Of a stretch of DNA of 64,000 nt, positions 25,363 through 33,507 are shown piece by piece; position 1 is the first letter of the stretch; every line of letters begins with the position of its first letter. The notes below the pieces were generated by a model that worked only from the letters and a program-made list of their open reading frames with translations, was not told where the DNA came from and did not search any database. The DNA comes from Dehalococcoides mccartyi CG5 (GTDB taxonomy: Bacteria > Chloroflexota > Dehalococcoidia > Dehalococcoidales > Dehalococcoidaceae), in NCBI RefSeq assembly GCF_000830885.1, contig NZ_CP006951.1, forward strand, positions 248,001 to 312,000, written 5' to 3'. A program made the translations under genes and the position numbers.

Positions 25363-26733
25363 TTATTTAGCGCCGGGTGAACCTATAAAACCGGCTATAT
25401 CTTCTACACCAATTTTGCCGAGGGTGTCAACTATCAAATCGGCCTCTTTTAGGGTCTCTGGTTGCTGGCTGTTGGTAACAGCCAGGCACTTCATGCCGGC
25501 TTTTTTAGCCGCTTCCACCCCGCCGGGTGCGTCTTCTATAACCAGACACTCCTCCGGTCTGGCACACAGTCTGGCGGCCGAAAGCAAAAATACCTGCGGA
25601 TTTGGCTTGCCCTTGGTAACATCCTTTTCGCTGATTGTGGCCAGAAAGTAGTCACCTATACCCAGCTTGGTCATAACCAGCTTGATATTAGCCAGCGGTG
25701 CCGAAGACGCAATCGCCATCCGGTAGCCGGCCGCTTTCAGGGATTTTAGCAAATCCATTACGCCGGGAAATATTTTTATATCCTGTCCGGCATATTCACG
25801 GAACAGGTGTTCCTTGCGGTCAGCCAGAGTGTGGATAATATCCGCCTCTGACTTTTCCCCCAGTACAGAGTAAATTATCATATCATTTCGCAAACCGAAG
25901 GTGCGGTAAAAATCTGCTTCGGAAAAAGTGTAACCCATTTCAGTAAAAGTAGTCTGCCATGCCCTGAAATGGAGAGGGGCGGAATCTGCAATCACTCCGT
26001 CCATATCCCAGATAACCGCTTTGTTTTGGGAAAGCGGCAGTCCAGTGGGGTGTTTTCGGGGGGATATCTGGGGGCGGCGCAGATAAAGCGGCTGCAGACC
26101 GGCAGAATTATCTGTAAGGCCGTCTTCAATCCTCTTTTTAGCCAGCCTTGCCAGCGATACTGCCCTTGAGGGGCGTATATCTGCCGGGGCAAATACTGTT
26201 TTTTTGTCCCCAAGCAGGGTTTTGAGTTCGGTCTGGACGGTTTGGCTTATCGGCCCGCAGATAACACAAGGTTCGGTTATTTTAGCGGCTAAATCAGCCA
26301 GATTGGTGATATGGGGTTTAATCTCTTCTTTTAAATCTGCTCCGTTTTTAGTATAAGCTCCCGCAGCATATTCCTGCTGTCCCGAAGGCAGCAGTGCCCA
26401 TACCGTAAGCCCGCTTGCCAGATATGGGTATGCAGCCAGTTCCAGCGTGCCGATACCGCACAGAGGTATATCAAGAGTGTAGGCCAGGCTTTTGGCAGTG
26501 CTGAGGCCTATCCTCAGGCCGTTAAAACTGCCCGGCCCGATGGAAACCGCAATGGCGGTGGCATCTTTAAGGCTAAGCCCTGCAGACTCAAGCAGCCAGT
26601 CCAGCCGGGGCAACAGCTCCACAGTCTGGTTCTGGTGGCTAAGCCAGTTGTACTGGGCAACTATTTCATTATCTCTAAGTATAGCCAGCCCGGTATCCGG
26701 GGTGGCGGTATCAATGGCTATTAAAACCGGCAT
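25363..26733 (-). CDS. TsaB (t6A synthesis) fused to a HAD-family phosphatase/mutase
   Basis: 456 residues with two complete domains. Residues 1-221 are TsaB (YeaZ): IAIDTATPDTGLAIL, SIGPGSFNGLRIGLSTAKSLA (64-84) and the terminal LQPLYLRRP. TsaB works with TsaD and TsaE to make t6A37 on ANN-reading tRNAs. After a linker, residues 237-456 are a HAD hydrolase of the beta-phosphoglucomutase type: DMDGVIADS (nucleophile D243, acid D245), SSAPLAN (motif II), KGKPNPQVF (Lys) and VIEDAPGGVEAA (acidic motif). There is no frameshift or internal ribosome site at the junction. It overlaps tsaE by 23 bases. Confidence 0.92.
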   Translation of the reverse strand: MPVLIAIDTATPDTGLAILRDNEIVAQYNWLSHQNQTVELLPRLDWLLESAGLSLKDATAIAVSIGPGSFNGLRIGLSTAKSLAYTLDIPLCGIGTLELAAYPYLASGLTVWALLPSGQQEYAAGAYTKNGADLKEEIKPHITNLADLAAKITEPCVICGPISQTVQTELKTLLGDKKTVFAPADIRPSRAVSLARLAKKRIEDGLTDNSAGLQPLYLRRPQISPRKHPTGLPLSQNKAVIWDMDGVIADSAPLHFRAWQTTFTEMGYTFSEADFYRTFGLRNDMIIYSVLGEKSEADIIHTLADRKEHLFREYAGQDIKIFPGVMDLLKSLKAAGYRMAIASSAPLANIKLVMTKLGIGDYFLATISEKDVTKGKPNPQVFLLSAARLCARPEECLVIEDAPGGVEAAKKAGMKCLAVTNSQQPETLKEADLIVDTLGKIGVEDIAGFIGSPGAK

Positions 26734-28209: not shown

Positions 28210-28218
28210 AATGCAGAG

Positions 28219-28227
28219 ATTATACCA
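28219..28227 (-). promoter_or_regulatory. Extended -10 promoter for a leaderless thiL operon mRNA
   Basis: Minus-strand TGGTATAAT (consensus -10) lies 9 bases upstream of the thiL ATG at 28209. CTCTGCATT between them is not a ribosome site. Confidence 0.7.
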
Positions 28228-28329
28228 TTTTTTAGCTGATGCCTGCAGTGCCGGAAATAGCCATTTTGTAAAATTTACGGGGCGGTTTCTCAGGTTTGGC
28301 TTACGTATGGGTTGCGAAGGGGTTTAACC

Positions 28330-28358
28330 TTGACAATTAATACATTGAGGAATATGAT
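28330..28358 (+). promoter_or_regulatory. Near-consensus sigma-70 promoter of the methyltransferase/cyclase/prenyltransferase cluster
   Basis: TTGACA (28330-28335) and TATGAT (28353-28358) are spaced exactly 17 bp apart. It is one of the strongest promoters in the window. The expected start is about 28365, giving a leader of about 135 bases to the first ATG at 28501. Confidence 0.85.
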
Positions 28359-28371
28359 TGGTCTTTGAAAT

Positions 28372-28452
28372 CGCCATCAATATGGCGTTTTTATTTGGCA
28401 CTTACTCAAAAAAGCTGAGTTTTGTCATTGTTTAACTCTCCGTTTCAATGAC
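28372..28452 (+). promoter_or_regulatory. Structured leader with a terminator-like hairpin (possible attenuator)
   Basis: Seven or so bases after the predicted start lies the hairpin CGCCAT-CAAT-ATGGCG (28372-28387) followed by TTTTT. This is an intrinsic-terminator shape inside the leader. A second inverted repeat GTCATTG/CAATGAC (28424-28430 and 28446-28452) follows. The ribosome site AAAGGTGAT is at 28487-28495. Attenuation or a small aborted RNA is possible. The first repeat could instead be an operator. Confidence 0.5.
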
Positions 28453-28500
28453 TTCAGATATAGTATACATCTAAATAAATGCTTCAAAAGGTGATAGCTG

Positions 28501-29277
28501 ATGAGTAGTTTGGCCGAAGCGCCTATCCAGGACCCCGGATTTGATTCTGAAGAGGCGCATAAACGTAAACAGTACATGGTTGACTTGTTCGTAGTTCAAG
28601 CAAAAAACTATGATTTCCACGATGATGTCTTCGGGCTTTATGCCCACCGTTTCTGGATGCGGACCGTTCTTAAAATAATCGGCAAGTTTATGAAAGGCCG
28701 TACCAGCACCAAAATGCTTGATTTGGCCTGCGGCACCGGTTTTGTCACTTTCAATACAGCCCGGAACTTTGAGAATATTGACATAGATTCCTTTGATATC
28801 AGCCCGGATATGCTGGCGGTTGCCAAGGAACGCTATGAAAAATATTTCAAGGGGCGCAGTATCAAGTTCTGGCAGGGTGATGCCGAAGTTCCCTTTGGCG
28901 AAAATAAATACGACCTGATAACCACCAGTTTTGCTTACCGCAACTTTGCCAACAAAGGGCTGGCTACCGAGAACGTTTTCCGCGCTCTTAAGCCGGGTGG
29001 TTTGTTTATTATTCAGGACCTTACCAAACCCGAACACCATCCCATGCGCGGGTTGTATATATTCTATATGAAGTACGTTTTGCCTTTGTTCACCAGCATC
29101 TTGGGTACTGAAAAATCAGCTGCCCGCTGGCTTTATAAATCTGCCATGATGATGCCCACTAACGGGCAGATTGCTAAACTGATGGAAAGCAAGGGCTTTG
29201 AAAAATGCCAGTACAAGAGTTTGTCACTGGGTATTGCCTGCGTAATCTGGGGCTTTAAACCGGAGAAATCAGAATAA
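28501..29277 (+). CDS. UbiE/MenG-like C-methyltransferase, paralogue 1
   Basis: 258 residues. Class I SAM methyltransferase with the UbiE (COG2226) layout. The N-terminal block QAKNYDFHDDVFGLYAHRFW (about 33-52) corresponds to the usual A-x-x-Y-D-x-x-N and H-R-x-W signature. The SAM loop LDLACGTGF is at 73-81, the post-I region DIDSFDISPDMLAVAK follows, and LTKPEHHPMRG is near 174-185. Known UbiE/MenG enzymes methylate polyprenylated quinone precursors. The true substrate here is unknown. It is the first gene of a five-gene cluster with the AroB-like cyclase and a UbiA-like transferase. Confidence 0.85.
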   Translation: MSSLAEAPIQDPGFDSEEAHKRKQYMVDLFVVQAKNYDFHDDVFGLYAHRFWMRTVLKIIGKFMKGRTSTKMLDLACGTGFVTFNTARNFENIDIDSFDISPDMLAVAKERYEKYFKGRSIKFWQGDAEVPFGENKYDLITTSFAYRNFANKGLATENVFRALKPGGLFIIQDLTKPEHHPMRGLYIFYMKYVLPLFTSILGTEKSAARWLYKSAMMMPTNGQIAKLMESKGFEKCQYKSLSLGIACVIWGFKPEKSE

Positions 29278-29278
29278 A

Positions 29279-30046
29279 ATGAGCAGTATAAATGTAAGTG
29301 TGAAAGACCCCGGCTTCGAGTCTGAAGAGGCTCAGGCCCGCAAGCGTTATATGCTCCAGTTGTTTGGCTTTCAGGCTAAACACTATGACCTGCACGATGA
29401 CATTATGGGTATGGGTATTCACCGCCGCTGGGGCAAAGAGATGGTTCTGGAGATACTGACTTATACCCGCAACATGCCGCAGGTAAAAATGCTGGACCTT
29501 GCTTGCGGTACCGGTTTTGTTACCTTCAATACCCTGCGGTACATGAAAAATGTGGATATAGACGCCTTTGATATTACTCCTGAAATGGTAGAAGTGGCCA
29601 AAGGCCGTCTCAAGAAAAATTTTGCGGATCGCAGTGTGAAATTCTGGGTGGGTGATGCCGAAATACCCTACGGAGACGCCAAGTACGATGTTATAGGTAC
29701 CTGCTTCGCTTTCCGCAATTTTGCCAATAAAAATTTGGCTGCGGCTAATATTTTCAAGGCACTAAAACCGGGTGGTCTGCTGGTTCTGCAAGATATGACC
29801 AAACCTGAAAAACAGCCTATGCGAGGTATTTATCTCTTTGCCTTGAAAAATCTGATGCCCGTAATGGCACGGATAATCGGCACGGAAAAAAAGTCTGCCC
29901 GTTATCTGGCAAACTCGGTGCTGGCCATGCCCAGCAACGCTGAGATAACTGCCATATTGCAGAATCAGGGTTTTATAAATATCAAATCCCGCTATCAAAG
30001 CGGCGGTATGGGTACACTTACAGTGGCCTATAAGCCGGAGAGTTAA
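29279..30046 (+). CDS. UbiE/MenG-like C-methyltransferase, paralogue 2
   Basis: 255 residues, starting 1 base after the paralogue 1 stop. It shares the unusual N-terminal block PGFESEEAQARKRYM (PGFDSEEAHKRKQYM in paralogue 1), QAKHYDLHDDIMGMGIHRRW, the SAM loop LDLACGTGF (72-80) and MTKPEKQPMRG. The two proteins are clearly a tandem duplicate that has diverged. The C-terminus differs most, so they may act at different carbons or on successive intermediates. Confidence 0.85.
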   Translation: MSSINVSVKDPGFESEEAQARKRYMLQLFGFQAKHYDLHDDIMGMGIHRRWGKEMVLEILTYTRNMPQVKMLDLACGTGFVTFNTLRYMKNVDIDAFDITPEMVEVAKGRLKKNFADRSVKFWVGDAEIPYGDAKYDVIGTCFAFRNFANKNLAAANIFKALKPGGLLVLQDMTKPEKQPMRGIYLFALKNLMPVMARIIGTEKKSARYLANSVLAMPSNAEITAILQNQGFINIKSRYQSGGMGTLTVAYKPES

Positions 30047-30047
30047 A

Positions 30048-31142
30048 ATGGGTAAAGTGGATACACTGGCTTATGACATTGGCAATAACCGTACCCGTCA
30101 CGTATATATAGGCAGTGGCATACTGGATAGCCTGCCTGGATGTGCCCGTGAATTGAATGCGGACAAGTTTTTTATTATTACCGATTCCAATCTTGAAAAT
30201 ATCCTCAAGGATAAAATCAAGAACTTGCTTGCCGGCGTGGCTGAAACCCATATTTTGGCTTTCCCTGCCGGTGAAGCCTCCAAGACATTGTCTACGCTGG
30301 AAGATATCGGCTCCAAAATCCTTGACCTCAGGGCTACCAAGTCCAGCGTTATTGTCTGTCTGGGGGGTGGGGTAGTAGGAAATCTGGGAGGCCTTACCGC
30401 AGCTCTCCTTTTCCGTGGTCTGCGCTTTTTCCATATACCTACCACCATGGTTGCCCAGATAGATAGTGCTATTGGTCAAAAACAGGCCGTGAATTACAAA
30501 ATGGGCAAGAATCTGTTCGGTCAGTATTATGCCCCCGAGTTTGTTTTTATAGACTTTGATTTTCTGCGTACTTTGCCCGAACGCCAGATACGGGCCGGTT
30601 TGGCCGAATCTGTAAAACACGGCTTGTGTCAGGAATCCACCTTTTTTGACTATATAGAAGAACATGCCGGTGATTATTCGCCGAAGGTGATAGACTATAT
30701 TTCCCGCCATACCATAGAGCTTAAACTGGAGCTTCTGAAGATTGACCCCTTTGAGGGCAAGCTTGATCCCCAGCTGGAGCTTGGGCATACCATAGGCCAT
30801 GCGGTAGAGATTATTAAAAACGGTCAGCTTCTTCACGGTGAATCCATTGCCATTGGCATGGTGGCGGAAGCCGCCCTTTCCTGTGAGATGGGTTATATGA
30901 AACCTGAACTGGCCGCCAAAATAGAGCGTATTTTCAAGAAGCTGGGATTGCCGACCCGCATTCCGGCAGATGTTCCTCTGGAGGGCGTGCTGGAAGCCCT
31001 TCGCTATGACAACAAACGCCGTACTGCCCGTACAGACTTCTTTCTGCTTGAAGATTTTACCCGTTTCCACAAAGAAAATGGTAAAATAGGTACTAAGGTT
31101 TCTGAAGAGGTTTTGAAGAAGGTTCTTGAAAGCGCTTACTAG
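30048..31142 (+). CDS. AroB-family sugar-phosphate cyclase (3-dehydroquinate synthase-like)
   Basis: 364 residues. It has the NAD-dependent cyclase fold of the dehydroquinate synthase superfamily. Zinc ligands are present: Glu187 (GLAESVKHG), His247 (LELGHTIGH) and His263 (LLHGES). The NAD loop reads GGGVVGNLGGL, with Asn112 where dehydroquinate synthases have Asp. The substrate loop reads DSAIGQKQAVN (139-149) in place of the usual DSSIGGKTGVN. As I recall, the KQAVN form resembles 2-deoxy-scyllo-inosose synthases, so the product may not be dehydroquinate. The start ATG is 1 base after paralogue 2. Confidence 0.82.
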   Translation: MGKVDTLAYDIGNNRTRHVYIGSGILDSLPGCARELNADKFFIITDSNLENILKDKIKNLLAGVAETHILAFPAGEASKTLSTLEDIGSKILDLRATKSSVIVCLGGGVVGNLGGLTAALLFRGLRFFHIPTTMVAQIDSAIGQKQAVNYKMGKNLFGQYYAPEFVFIDFDFLRTLPERQIRAGLAESVKHGLCQESTFFDYIEEHAGDYSPKVIDYISRHTIELKLELLKIDPFEGKLDPQLELGHTIGHAVEIIKNGQLLHGESIAIGMVAEAALSCEMGYMKPELAAKIERIFKKLGLPTRIPADVPLEGVLEALRYDNKRRTARTDFFLLEDFTRFHKENGKIGTKVSEEVLKKVLESAY

Positions 31143-32046
31143 CGAACGTCCGGGTTTTCAGGACTGGATACAGGCCGCCCGCCTTAAGTTTTTACCTCAG
31201 GGTGTAATGCCGGTGGTAATAGCCGGCGCTTTAGCCTTTTCCGAGGGTACCTTTAATGTGGCCAATTTTATAGTGGCTTTTTCAGCTGCTGCAGCTGTCC
31301 AGATAGGTCTTACCATGTTCAACGATACCCTTGATTATGTTTATGGTACTGACTGCAAACCCATAGATGCCAAAAACCCTTTCTCCGGAGGGAGCGGGGT
31401 ATTTACCTGCGGCCTCATAAAACCCCGCCAGTCTCTGATGGTTATCTTTGGGCTGTATCTCTTTGCCCTGATGTGTGCCATTTACATGGCGCTGGACATG
31501 GGTTGGGGAGTTATGTGGATTGCCATTATCGGAGCGACTATTTCCATACTCTATTCCGCCAAACCTCTACGTTTGGCCTACCACGGCTTGGGCGAACTTG
31601 TGATGCTTCTTGGATACGGACCGGTTCTAACCGCTTGGGGTTATTTTGTCCACACCGGCATGGTTAGCTGGGATGTGCTTCTAATAGGTGTCATACCGGG
31701 TTTATGCATGTGGACCATGATACTTATCAATGAGATACCGGATTACGAAGAAGACCGGGCAGCCGGAAAACGTAACCTGACATATCGGTTAGGGCCTAAA
31801 AATGCCAAAAATCTGTTTATTATTTCACTGGTAGCTCTGTATGCCTATATACTGGCGCTTGTTTTTAGCGGGGTGATGCCGCCACTCTCTGCCATAGCCT
31901 TAGGCGGTATTCCTCTGGCAGTTATGGCCGTCAGGATTGCCCACCGCTATTACGATGACCCCATAAAGGTAGCCATGGCCAATAAATTGATGGTCATAAT
32001 ATATTCGGTCACAACTGCTACGGTGGCCATAGGGATGTTGACATAA
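31126..32046 (+). CDS. UbiA/MenA-family prenyltransferase
   Basis: 306 residues, about eight to nine membrane helices. Attaches a polyprenyl chain to a ring acceptor in the membrane. Asp motif 1 is NDTLDYVYGTD (66-76) followed by the family GGSGV element (88-92). Asp motif 2 is NEIPDYEEDRAAGKRNL (202-218). The spacing is closer to MenA-type than to UbiA proper, by eye. The start is TTG 31126 inside the end of the cyclase gene, with AAGG just upstream, so translation is coupled. Acceptor unknown. Confidence 0.85.
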   Translation: MKALTSERPGFQDWIQAARLKFLPQGVMPVVIAGALAFSEGTFNVANFIVAFSAAAAVQIGLTMFNDTLDYVYGTDCKPIDAKNPFSGGSGVFTCGLIKPRQSLMVIFGLYLFALMCAIYMALDMGWGVMWIAIIGATISILYSAKPLRLAYHGLGELVMLLGYGPVLTAWGYFVHTGMVSWDVLLIGVIPGLCMWTMILINEIPDYEEDRAAGKRNLTYRLGPKNAKNLFIISLVALYAYILALVFSGVMPPLSAIALGGIPLAVMAVRIAHRYYDDPIKVAMANKLMVIIYSVTTATVAIGMLT

Positions 32047-32648
32047 TGGTAGCGCCCAGTTTTTTTGAAAAAGTTGCCCCGGTATACGAATTTTTAACCC
32101 GTATGTTTATGCTGGGCACATTTGAAAGTGCCCGTAACCGTATGCTGAACGAAGATACCTCTGAATTTAGTGTGTTAGACCTTTGCACCGGTACCGGATA
32201 TATTGCTAACAAGATAGAGGCGAAGCGGATTGTGGGGCTGGACCAGTCTGTTCAGATGATGGCTCTTAATGACCGCACTAAACGCCCCAATAAAACTCTG
32301 GTGCGGGGTAATGCTTATCACCTGCCTTTTGAGGATGGGGAGTTTGAGCGTATTTATTGCTCCAGCGCCAGCCATGAATTCAAATTGTTTGGCAAGGTAC
32401 TGGCAGAATGTTTCCGCACCCTGAAGCCCGGTGGTAAAGTGGCTATTTATGATATTTACCAGCCCAAAAACAAATTTTATTCCCTGATAGTCAATACTAT
32501 TTACCGTTATCCTGTTGAGCACAATATTATGTGGGTGCATACTCTGGAGGAATGGCGGAAACTTCTAACCGAAGCCGGTTTTGAGGTGGAGGAACTGGAA
32601 GCAGTCAGAGGGGTATTTGTATTTGTGCGGGCCGTAAGACCTGCTTAA
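32046..32648 (+). CDS. SAM-dependent methyltransferase (third of the cluster)
   Basis: 200 residues, class I methyltransferase. The SAM loop LDLCTGTGYIANKI lies at about 44-57, with GLDQSVQMMALN, LPFEDGEFERIYCSSASHEF and TLKPGGKVAIYDIY. It begins with SFFEKVAPVYEFLTR, a short version of the UbiE N-terminal signature. The ATG shares its first base with the last base of the UbiA stop codon (TAATG), so the two are tightly coupled. It is the last gene before a terminator. Confidence 0.85.
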   Translation: MVAPSFFEKVAPVYEFLTRMFMLGTFESARNRMLNEDTSEFSVLDLCTGTGYIANKIEAKRIVGLDQSVQMMALNDRTKRPNKTLVRGNAYHLPFEDGEFERIYCSSASHEFKLFGKVLAECFRTLKPGGKVAIYDIYQPKNKFYSLIVNTIYRYPVEHNIMWVHTLEEWRKLLTEAGFEVEELEAVRGVFVFVRAVRPA

Positions 32649-32674
32649 ACAAATAAAGGTTAGATATATATTAC

Positions 32675-32700
32675 AACAGGCTTCTTTGGAGCCTGTTTTG
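32675..32700 (+). terminator. Terminator of the methyltransferase/cyclase/prenyltransferase cluster
   Basis: Stem AACAGGCT (32675-32682)/AGCCTGTT (32690-32697), 7-base loop, followed by a T-rich stretch (TTGTTTTG). Confidence 0.85.
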
Positions 32701-32742
32701 TTTTGTCCTCAATAAAGATAGCCAAAAATGGACAGTGCCCCC

Positions 32743-32770
32743 TTAACAAATTACGCCCTTATGGTATCAT
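32743..32770 (+). promoter_or_regulatory. Promoter for a leaderless phosphoesterase mRNA
   Basis: TTAACA (32743-32748) and TATCAT (32765-32770), 16 bp spacer, extended by TGG. The ATG at 32776 is 5 bases downstream. Confidence 0.6.
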
Positions 32771-32775
32771 TAGGG

Positions 32776-33507
32776 ATGCGTTATGCGGTGATGGCGGACA
32801 TACATGCTAATCTGGAGGCTTTAAATGCCGTACTGGAAGATGCCTATAAACGTGACGCTACCGAGATATGGTGTTTGGGAGATATTATAAATTACGGCCC
32901 TGACCCGACAGCCTGTCTGGAAATTCTGATGAACCACAAACATTTGGCAGTAGCCGGCAACCATGACCTGGCAGTAGCCGGCAAGATAAACCACTCCCTG
33001 TTTGAACTGGAAGCCGCCCGTTGTCTGGCATGGACCAGAAGCCAGTTGTCTTCAGACATGATTGATTACCTGGCTGTATTGCCCGAAATGCTTATCGTGG
33101 GTGATTTTAGCTTGGTACATGGCAGTCTCAAACGACCGGTGTGGGATTATATTACTACCCCTCAGCTTGCATCCGAGAATTTCGGTCTTATGCGGACGCC
33201 TTATTGTCTGGTGGGGCATACCCATATGCCCTATGTATTTACTACCGGCCAAAACGGGATCTGCCGCGGTATGCCCCTAATGGCAGGGAGTATGCAGCCT
33301 CTTCGCCAGACAAATCTTATCATAAATCCCGGCAGTGTCGGCCAGCCCAGAGACGGCAACCCGCAGGCCAGTTATGGTATTTACAATGATGAAGCCCGCA
33401 CTTTCTGCCTTTACAGGGTAGCTTATAACATTCCTGCTACCCAAAAGAAGATGCAAAAAGCCAAATTACCCCCGTTTTTATCAGCACGATTGAGCAAAGG
33501 GCGTTAA
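32776..33507 (+). CDS. Calcineurin-like metallophosphoesterase (YfcE/MJ0936 type)
   Basis: 243 residues from ATG 32776 (MRYAVMADIHANLEALN). Metal-binding motifs of the family appear in order: ADIHAN (D and H), CLGDIINYGPDP, AGNHD, VHGS and GHTHMPY, then INPGSVGQPRDGNP. It probably cleaves a phosphodiester, but the substrate is not indicated. An in-frame ATG at 32728 lies before the promoter and is unlikely. It is followed closely by rsmA. Confidence 0.9.
   Translation: MRYAVMADIHANLEALNAVLEDAYKRDATEIWCLGDIINYGPDPTACLEILMNHKHLAVAGNHDLAVAGKINHSLFELEAARCLAWTRSQLSSDMIDYLAVLPEMLIVGDFSLVHGSLKRPVWDYITTPQLASENFGLMRTPYCLVGHTHMPYVFTTGQNGICRGMPLMAGSMQPLRQTNLIINPGSVGQPRDGNPQASYGIYNDEARTFCLYRVAYNIPATQKKMQKAKLPPFLSARLSKGR

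Follow-up and report, generated by a model that had tools for sequence, protein, structure and literature searches.

A conserved five-gene operon of Dehalococcoides mccartyi CG5 combining a DOIS-like sugar phosphate cyclase with a MenA-like prenyltransferase and three methyltransferases: a possible hexose phosphate route to a prenylated ring lipid

The stretch of DNA analyzed in this work (the window hereafter) covers 64,000 nucleotides of the Dehalococcoides mccartyi CG5 genome (contig NZ_CP006951.1, positions 248,001 to 312,000) and harbors a compact operon of five genes, all with intact reading frames, which code for two UbiE/COQ5-type methyltransferases (MT1 and MT2), a cyclase of the AroB family (CYC), a UbiA-superfamily prenyltransferase (PT) and a third, smaller methyltransferase (MT3) (Table 1). 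Going from MT1 to MT3, the spacing between adjacent genes is 1, 1, -17 and -1 bases, and all five proteins score above the cut-offs of their Pfam families. The first-pass annotation of this DNA, which had described five tightly coupled genes of these families (1-base gaps or overlaps) bounded by a near-consensus promoter and a clear terminator, is thus borne out in full, and a further hairpin located in the leader can be added to it.

Table 1. Features of the operon and of its flanking signals, in coordinates of the window.
Feature	Position	Strand	Basis
Promoter, sigma-70-like, TTGACA-17-TATGAT	28330..28358	+	11/12 consensus match
5' leader, conserved, two hairpins	28361..28500	+	86% identity, three species
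MT1, UbiE/COQ5-type S-adenosylmethionine (SAM) methyltransferase, predicted C-methyltransferase	28501..29277	+	PF01209
MT2, second UbiE/COQ5-type SAM methyltransferase	29279..30046	+	PF01209
CYC, DHQ_synthase-family protein, DOIS-type	30048..31142	+	active-site residues, tree, AU test
PT, MenA-like UbiA-superfamily prenyltransferase, TTG start	31126..32046	+	PF01040
MT3, small SAM methyltransferase, predicted O-methyltransferase	32046..32648	+	PF08241
Intrinsic terminator, 10-pair stem and T-run	32675..32697	+	alignable in three species

The identity of the cyclase was assessed on an alignment embedding ten CYC orthologues, four 2-deoxy-scyllo-inosose synthases (DOIS; the fragment of BtrC of solved structure plus three sequences from plasmid records, two of which are annotated as DOIS), a DOIS-like gene from a Clostridia metagenome-assembled genome (MAG), dehydroquinate synthases (DHQS) of several lineages, EboD, TIGR04425 and two sedoheptulose 7-phosphate cyclases. 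An aminoDHQS was also included, this being our reading of a cyclase whose cluster holds a 3-deoxy-D-arabino-heptulosonate 7-phosphate (DAHP) synthase and a shikimate dehydrogenase. An aminoDHQS-like cyclase adjoining a type II dehydroquinase was also observed on a Streptomyces plasmid (L062:5971-7547).

At the discriminating positions CYC agrees with DOIS: a Gln follows the active-site Lys (KQAVN), Arg264 is lost, Asn268 is replaced by Glu, and the GGGxxGN motif carries its Asn. This four-position fingerprint is matched by BtrC and by the three other DOIS, and by none of the DHQS, aminoDHQS, EEVS-type and EboD sequences. CYC retains the metal ligands as well as the remaining catalytic residues, and Q146, D240 (instead of Arg), E244 and N112 are present in 10 out of the 10 orthologues tabulated; all ten therefore have Asp at position 264 and Glu at position 268 (A. 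nidulans numbering), where both DHQS and aminoDHQS retain Arg and Asn. Since Arg264 of DHQS helps to bind the carboxylate of DAHP, its loss in CYC suggests that the substrate is a sugar phosphate lacking this group. The Met, Asp and Pro that sedoheptulose phosphate cyclases exhibit at the positions of K250, N268 and H275 are missing from CYC.

The position of this AroB paralogue among known cyclases, which the first-pass annotation had left to a tree, is in agreement with the residues. In the maximum-likelihood tree, CYC and DOIS form a clade with support 100/99, in which CYC sits on a branch (0.9) that is long by comparison with DOIS. The approximately unbiased (AU) test rejected three alternative placements of CYC: beside the aroB of the order to which it belongs, as would be expected for a duplicate of the native gene (p=0.0006), together with the DHQS as a whole (p=0.0003), and next to EEVS/EboD (p=0.008). 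Moreover, CYC scores 283.4 bits against the NCBIfam aroB equivalog, that is, below the cut-off of 305. Its assignment to TIGR04425 (AroB-related putative phospholyase) was also rejected, the score being 198 versus 400 bits and the Chloroflexota member of that family keeping DHQS-type residues; that member, whose score exceeds the cut-off, was found in a genome of the same class (G162, L072). The predicted structure of CYC shows the fold of the family (predicted local distance difference test score, pLDDT, 79.6), and its superposition on DOIS (2gru) gives Z 37.8 with a root mean square deviation of 2.6 over 354 residues; however, DHQS structures reach Z up to 40.2, so that the two kinds of structure are equally close to the model and the fold does not discriminate between them.

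The genome has a second AroB-family gene, a canonical aroB, embedded in a full shikimate operon together with genes that, from their sequences, read as DAHP synthase-like, dehydratase, dehydrogenase, kinase, aroA-like and aroC-like, which makes CYC dispensable for chorismate. On the basis of these sequence data, CYC probably functions, with good support, like a DOIS and not like a DHQS.

The prenyltransferase (PF01040, 96 bits) is the single UbiA-family protein of the genome. It has both Asp-rich motifs (NDTLD and DYEED), whose catalytic Asp is invariant in 11 orthologues, and it shares 30% identity with E. coli MenA (E=5e-17), while no significant similarity was found with E. coli UbiA or with EboC of the Deinococcus ebo cluster. 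Its resemblance to MenA stops short of every MenA equivalog cut-off (137.6 versus 264 bits; 65.4 versus 102.15 for TIGR00751). A similar picture emerges for MT1 and MT2, two UbiE/COQ5 paralogues sharing about 51% identity, which score 155.5 and 131.1 bits, respectively, against PF01209 (cut-off 20.1). MT1 passes the subfamily cut-off of TIGR01934 (160.3 versus 158.35 bits), whereas MT2 narrowly misses it (151.7), and both lie far below all the menaquinone and ubiquinone methyltransferase equivalog cut-offs. The closest solved structure to MT2, by sequence, is COQ5 (4obw). MT3 (61.8 bits with PF08241) is divergent and only weakly related to MenG/UbiE. The characterized members of the UbiE/COQ5 family C-methylate quinol rings and, more generally, the characterized MenA-like and UbiE/COQ5-like enzymes act on aromatic quinols.

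The cyclase was searched for in 151 genomes of the order and in 393 of the class. Orthologues sharing 64-100% identity were retrieved from 14 of the former, every remaining match being at or below 38%, and among the class genomes the carriers were 12. The CYC-positive set includes all three genomes of the same genus, all eight of a second genus within the family, plus three from two further families. The co-occurrence of the five families, indicated by the first-pass annotation as a way of checking its proposal, was indeed found: the order MT1-MT2-CYC-PT-MT3 is complete in 12 of the 14 CYC-positive genomes, among them all the Dehalococcoides-like and Dehalogenimonas-like ones, and in the other two the gene falls on short contigs ending inside or just after PT. 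The 17-base overlap between CYC and PT is maintained across lineages. In the second genus (Dehalogenimonas-like) the operon is retained with entirely different flanking genes, so that its linkage is not passive synteny. In two genomes of this genus an insertion of about 0.4-0.5 kb separates PT from MT3 (L044:9215-9641 and L045:9841-10336), one of them with an open reading frame (ORF) of 121 amino acids.

The operon is under strong purifying selection and its genes are not decaying. Indeed, comparisons among the species of the genus give ratios of nonsynonymous to synonymous substitution rates (dN/dS) of 0.03-0.10 for the five genes (MT1 0.03-0.10, MT2 0.04, MT3 0.03), as compared with about 0.08-0.13 for the neighboring thiL, tsaE, rsmA and ispE, the values of the operon genes being mostly lower than those of thiL, rsmA and ispE. 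Outside the order, a wide scan of genomes for two peptide patterns of CYC returned a single relative, the DOIS-like cyclase of the Clostridia MAG (L052:5914-7053; 37-38% identity to CYC), which adjoins a large non-ribosomal peptide synthetase gene.

The first-pass annotation had reported that the window lacks men/mqn ring-forming genes, and this can be extended to the whole genome for two of the families: neither MenB nor PF02621 (MqnA/D) was found in the 1.36 Mb single-contig assembly, UbiC, UbiD, MenD and others not having been searched for. Across the order, MenB is present in 4 of the 151 genomes and PF02621 gives weak matches in 9, none of which is CYC-positive.

An 11-subunit complex I operon devoid of NuoEFG (L065:5558-15409; genome 724000-742000) was also identified, as in most of the order. 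Its NuoD keeps the His and the Tyr of the quinone-head site (H20 and Y69), both of which have been lost by the two hydrogenase-type paralogues of the genome, and a pocket resembling a quinone site is predicted in the OmeB model (PMC10772276). The retained NuoD residues might weakly favor the presence of a quinone carrier.

Based on these data, we suggest that the operon encodes a short, O2-independent route that starts from a hexose phosphate and ends in a prenylated and methylated ring lipid, most likely a carrier of the benzoquinone type, a reading to which we assign a probability of roughly 45%. According to this scheme, CYC would form 2-deoxy-scyllo-inosose from glucose 6-phosphate or a closely related compound, with NAD+ and a metal. 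The cyclohexanone ring of this product carries four hydroxyls and a single CH2; the two hydroxyls in beta position to the ketone might then be lost as water, either spontaneously or by means of an enzyme encoded outside the operon, and tautomerization would give 1,2,4-trihydroxybenzene (C6H10O5 - 2 H2O = C6H6O3), i.e. a para-hydroquinone with an extra hydroxyl. PT might attach a polyprenyl chain to a ring carbon, MT1 and MT2 might C-methylate the two remaining ring carbons, and MT3 might O-methylate the extra hydroxyl, in this putative order. The predicted product would be a methoxy-dimethyl-polyprenyl-1,4-benzoquinone, C(9+5n)H(10+8n)O3, where n stands for a presumptive chain length, and its function would be a redox one. 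The m/z values calculated for it are 711.571 [M+H]+ or 728.598 [M+NH4]+ for n=8, 779.634 for n=9 and 847.696 for n=10.

Two features speak in favor of this scheme. First, the three free carbons and the spare hydroxyl of the ring are matched by one prenyltransferase, two presumed C-methyltransferases and one presumed O-methyltransferase, so that the ring would be fully substituted. Second, the oxygens of the ring would derive from the sugar, so that O2-dependent hydroxylation would not be needed, which suits a strict anaerobe. The sequence of events proposed by the first-pass annotation (sugar phosphate to ring, prenylation, methylations) has therefore gained support from the DOIS residues, the phylogeny, the conserved unit and the selection acting on it, while its choice between a quinone-like carrier and a membrane lipid is still a matter of inference. 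A full quinone pathway appears plausible, if unproven, and we advance somewhat more tentatively the idea of a further origin of the isoprenoid quinone ring, that is, from hexose phosphate via 2-deoxy-inosose, with neither chorismate nor O2-dependent hydroxylation being involved.

Several points weigh against the proposed benzoquinone. No dehydratase or aromatase is encoded in the operon and, because of the lack of a dehydratase, the aromatization is the weakest step of the scheme; a PF01261 TIM-barrel gene located 4 kb upstream was considered as an inosose dehydratase and rejected, since its sequence resembles that of endonuclease IV and nothing was found to connect it with the operon. CYC has an Asp (D240) where the DOIS sequences carry Gly or Ala, a small deviation that leaves room for a substrate other than glucose 6-phosphate. 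Moreover, sequence data can give neither the regiochemistry nor the choice between O- and C-methylation. As for complex I, it is present in 99 of the 137 CYC-negative members of the order and in 12 of the 14 CYC-positive ones (Fisher p=0.36); being so common in CYC-negative relatives, it does not point specifically to the product of the operon and was discarded as a specific indicator, its support being a weak one. As to the quinones themselves, the title of a 2005 paper by White et al., listed among the references of PMC2930330, names ubiquinone-8 in Dehalococcoides. It is reported that D. mccartyi grows without quinones, that HQNO has no effect and that quinones were not detected in the membranes (PMC10772276); quinone synthesis is denied for Dehalococcoides and Dehalogenimonas (PMC5736913), and complex I was not detected by complexome analysis (PMC6005880). 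Models of organohalide respiration in Dehalococcoides describe a unique chain that lacks quinones (PMC10772276, PMC6005880).

The failure to detect quinones in D. mccartyi (PMC10772276) would be easily accommodated if no aromatization occurred, i.e. if a cyclitol of the 2-deoxy-inosose type were alkylated by PT at an enolized carbon or at an oxygen and its hydroxyls were capped by the three methyltransferases, yielding a structural or protective membrane lipid rather than a redox carrier. The evidence on the cyclase (residues, tree and AU test) fits such a lipid equally well, the operon encodes no dehydratase, and clusters associating a cyclase with a UbiA protein have precedents in the ebo operon and in that of BE-40644 (PMC5133447). 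However, PT is MenA-like and MT1 and MT2 are UbiE/COQ5-like, and these are families acting on aromatic quinols, so that, on the whole, we regard the cyclitol lipid as rather unlikely.

The same resemblance of PT to MenA and of MT1 and MT2 to MenG, together with the absence of MenB and MqnA/D, might instead speak for the salvage of an exogenous or unknown quinol precursor, for example 1,4-dihydroxy-2-naphthoate (DHNA) supplied by partner bacteria, CYC making an unrelated cyclitol; organisms possessing only MenA and MenG and using exogenous DHNA are indeed known. This possibility is at odds with the location of CYC within the operon, with its overlap with PT and with the occurrence of the five genes together across 14 genomes; besides, PT and the methyltransferases fall below all MenA/MenG equivalog cut-offs, and two UbiE paralogues plus MT3 exceed the methyltransferase need of menaquinone. 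Growth without added quinones is also reported (PMC10772276). We consider salvage improbable.

We give little credit, too, to a CYC acting on some other sugar phosphate (sedoheptulose 7-phosphate or another hexose 6-phosphate), which would give a ring with an extra carbon or a different oxygenation and a similar downstream route: D240 and the long CYC branch are compatible with it, but the residues typical of EEVS are absent and the EEVS/EboD placement is rejected. Lastly, a non-functional MenA/MenG remnant next to a redundant dehydroquinate synthase, the main alternative according to the first-pass annotation, is suggested by the names that database families would give to these genes (menA, menG/ubiE, aroB) and is extremely improbable in view of the intact motifs, the low dN/dS, the conserved operon and the replacement, in every CYC orthologue, of the Arg and Asn of the DHQS carboxylate site, with the DHQS placement rejected.

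It is worth comparing the operon, read as a route to a prenylated benzoquinone, with the systems it most resembles. DOIS-type cyclases are otherwise known from aminoglycoside antibiotic pathways. With the DOIS of that kind (BtrC and relatives; PDB 2d2x and 2gru) CYC shares the K-Q-A/G-V-N motif, the remaining positions of the fingerprint and the clade; unlike them, it has Asp at the Arg264 position, it lies outside any aminoglycoside cluster, with no aminotransferase, glycosyltransferase or radical SAM neighbor, and it sits with a prenyltransferase and methyltransferases. To our knowledge, CYC would be the first DOIS-type cyclase to come from an operon of core metabolism and not from an antibiotic-type cluster. 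The menaquinone end steps likewise combine a MenA-like prenyltransferase and a UbiE/MenG-like methyltransferase, whereas here MenB and MqnA/D are lacking, the equivalog scores are below the cut-offs, and the operon adds a sugar phosphate cyclase and further methyltransferases.

The ebo operon also couples a sugar phosphate cyclase (EboD) with a UbiA-superfamily prenyltransferase (EboC), and an isoprenoid-cyclitol product has been predicted for it (PMC5133447); nevertheless, EboD belongs to another cyclase clade with residues of the sedoheptulose 7-phosphate type, EboC gives no significant match with PT, and EboA/B/E/F are absent from the operon studied here, which has three methyltransferases instead. 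An ebo-type cluster was rejected on these grounds, CYC falling outside the EboD branch, PT and EboC being unmatched and EboB/E/F missing. In the BE-40644 cluster a ring derived from a sugar phosphate is likewise dehydrated and then prenylated by a UbiA-family farnesyltransferase, but the starting compound is sedoheptulose 7-phosphate (EEVS) and the product is an actinobacterial secondary metabolite (PMC5133447). Clusters joining a cyclase and a UbiA protein are thus already known, and the operon would be categorically new only if a quinone product were proven. Within the literature available to it, our search retrieved no link of 2-deoxy-inosose to prenylated lipids, nor of Dehalococcoides to UbiA or 2-deoxy-inosose.

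If the chemistry were confirmed, the operon would represent a new way of making a quinone-like membrane lipid, and a hitherto unseen benzoquinone would occur in organohalide-respiring bacteria that are called quinone-free and yet keep the quinone site of complex I. The genome maintains an 11-subunit complex I that retains its quinone-head residues and for which no partner is known, together with an operon that might be read as a complete prenyl-benzoquinone pathway; the long-standing question of a mobile lipid carrier in Dehalococcoides is thereby made testable.

The regulatory region of the operon is also conserved. In the three species, 30 out of the 32 positions of the promoter stretch (28329-28360) are identical, as compared with 71% for the preceding segment (28210-28328). 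Just 3' of the promoter, the leader contains a terminator-like hairpin (28368-28391), followed by a 7-bp hairpin (28424-28430/28446-28452) with invariant arms and a variable loop; the folding z-score of the leader is only -1.65. No Rfam match to a known riboswitch was found in the leader, which might possibly work as an attenuator. Directly 3' of the operon terminator lies a metallophosphoesterase gene (32728-33507) that is kept in the genus, and a further ORF of the window (25363-26733) reads as coding for a 456-amino-acid fusion of a TsaB-like protein and a HAD-type phosphatase/phosphomutase.

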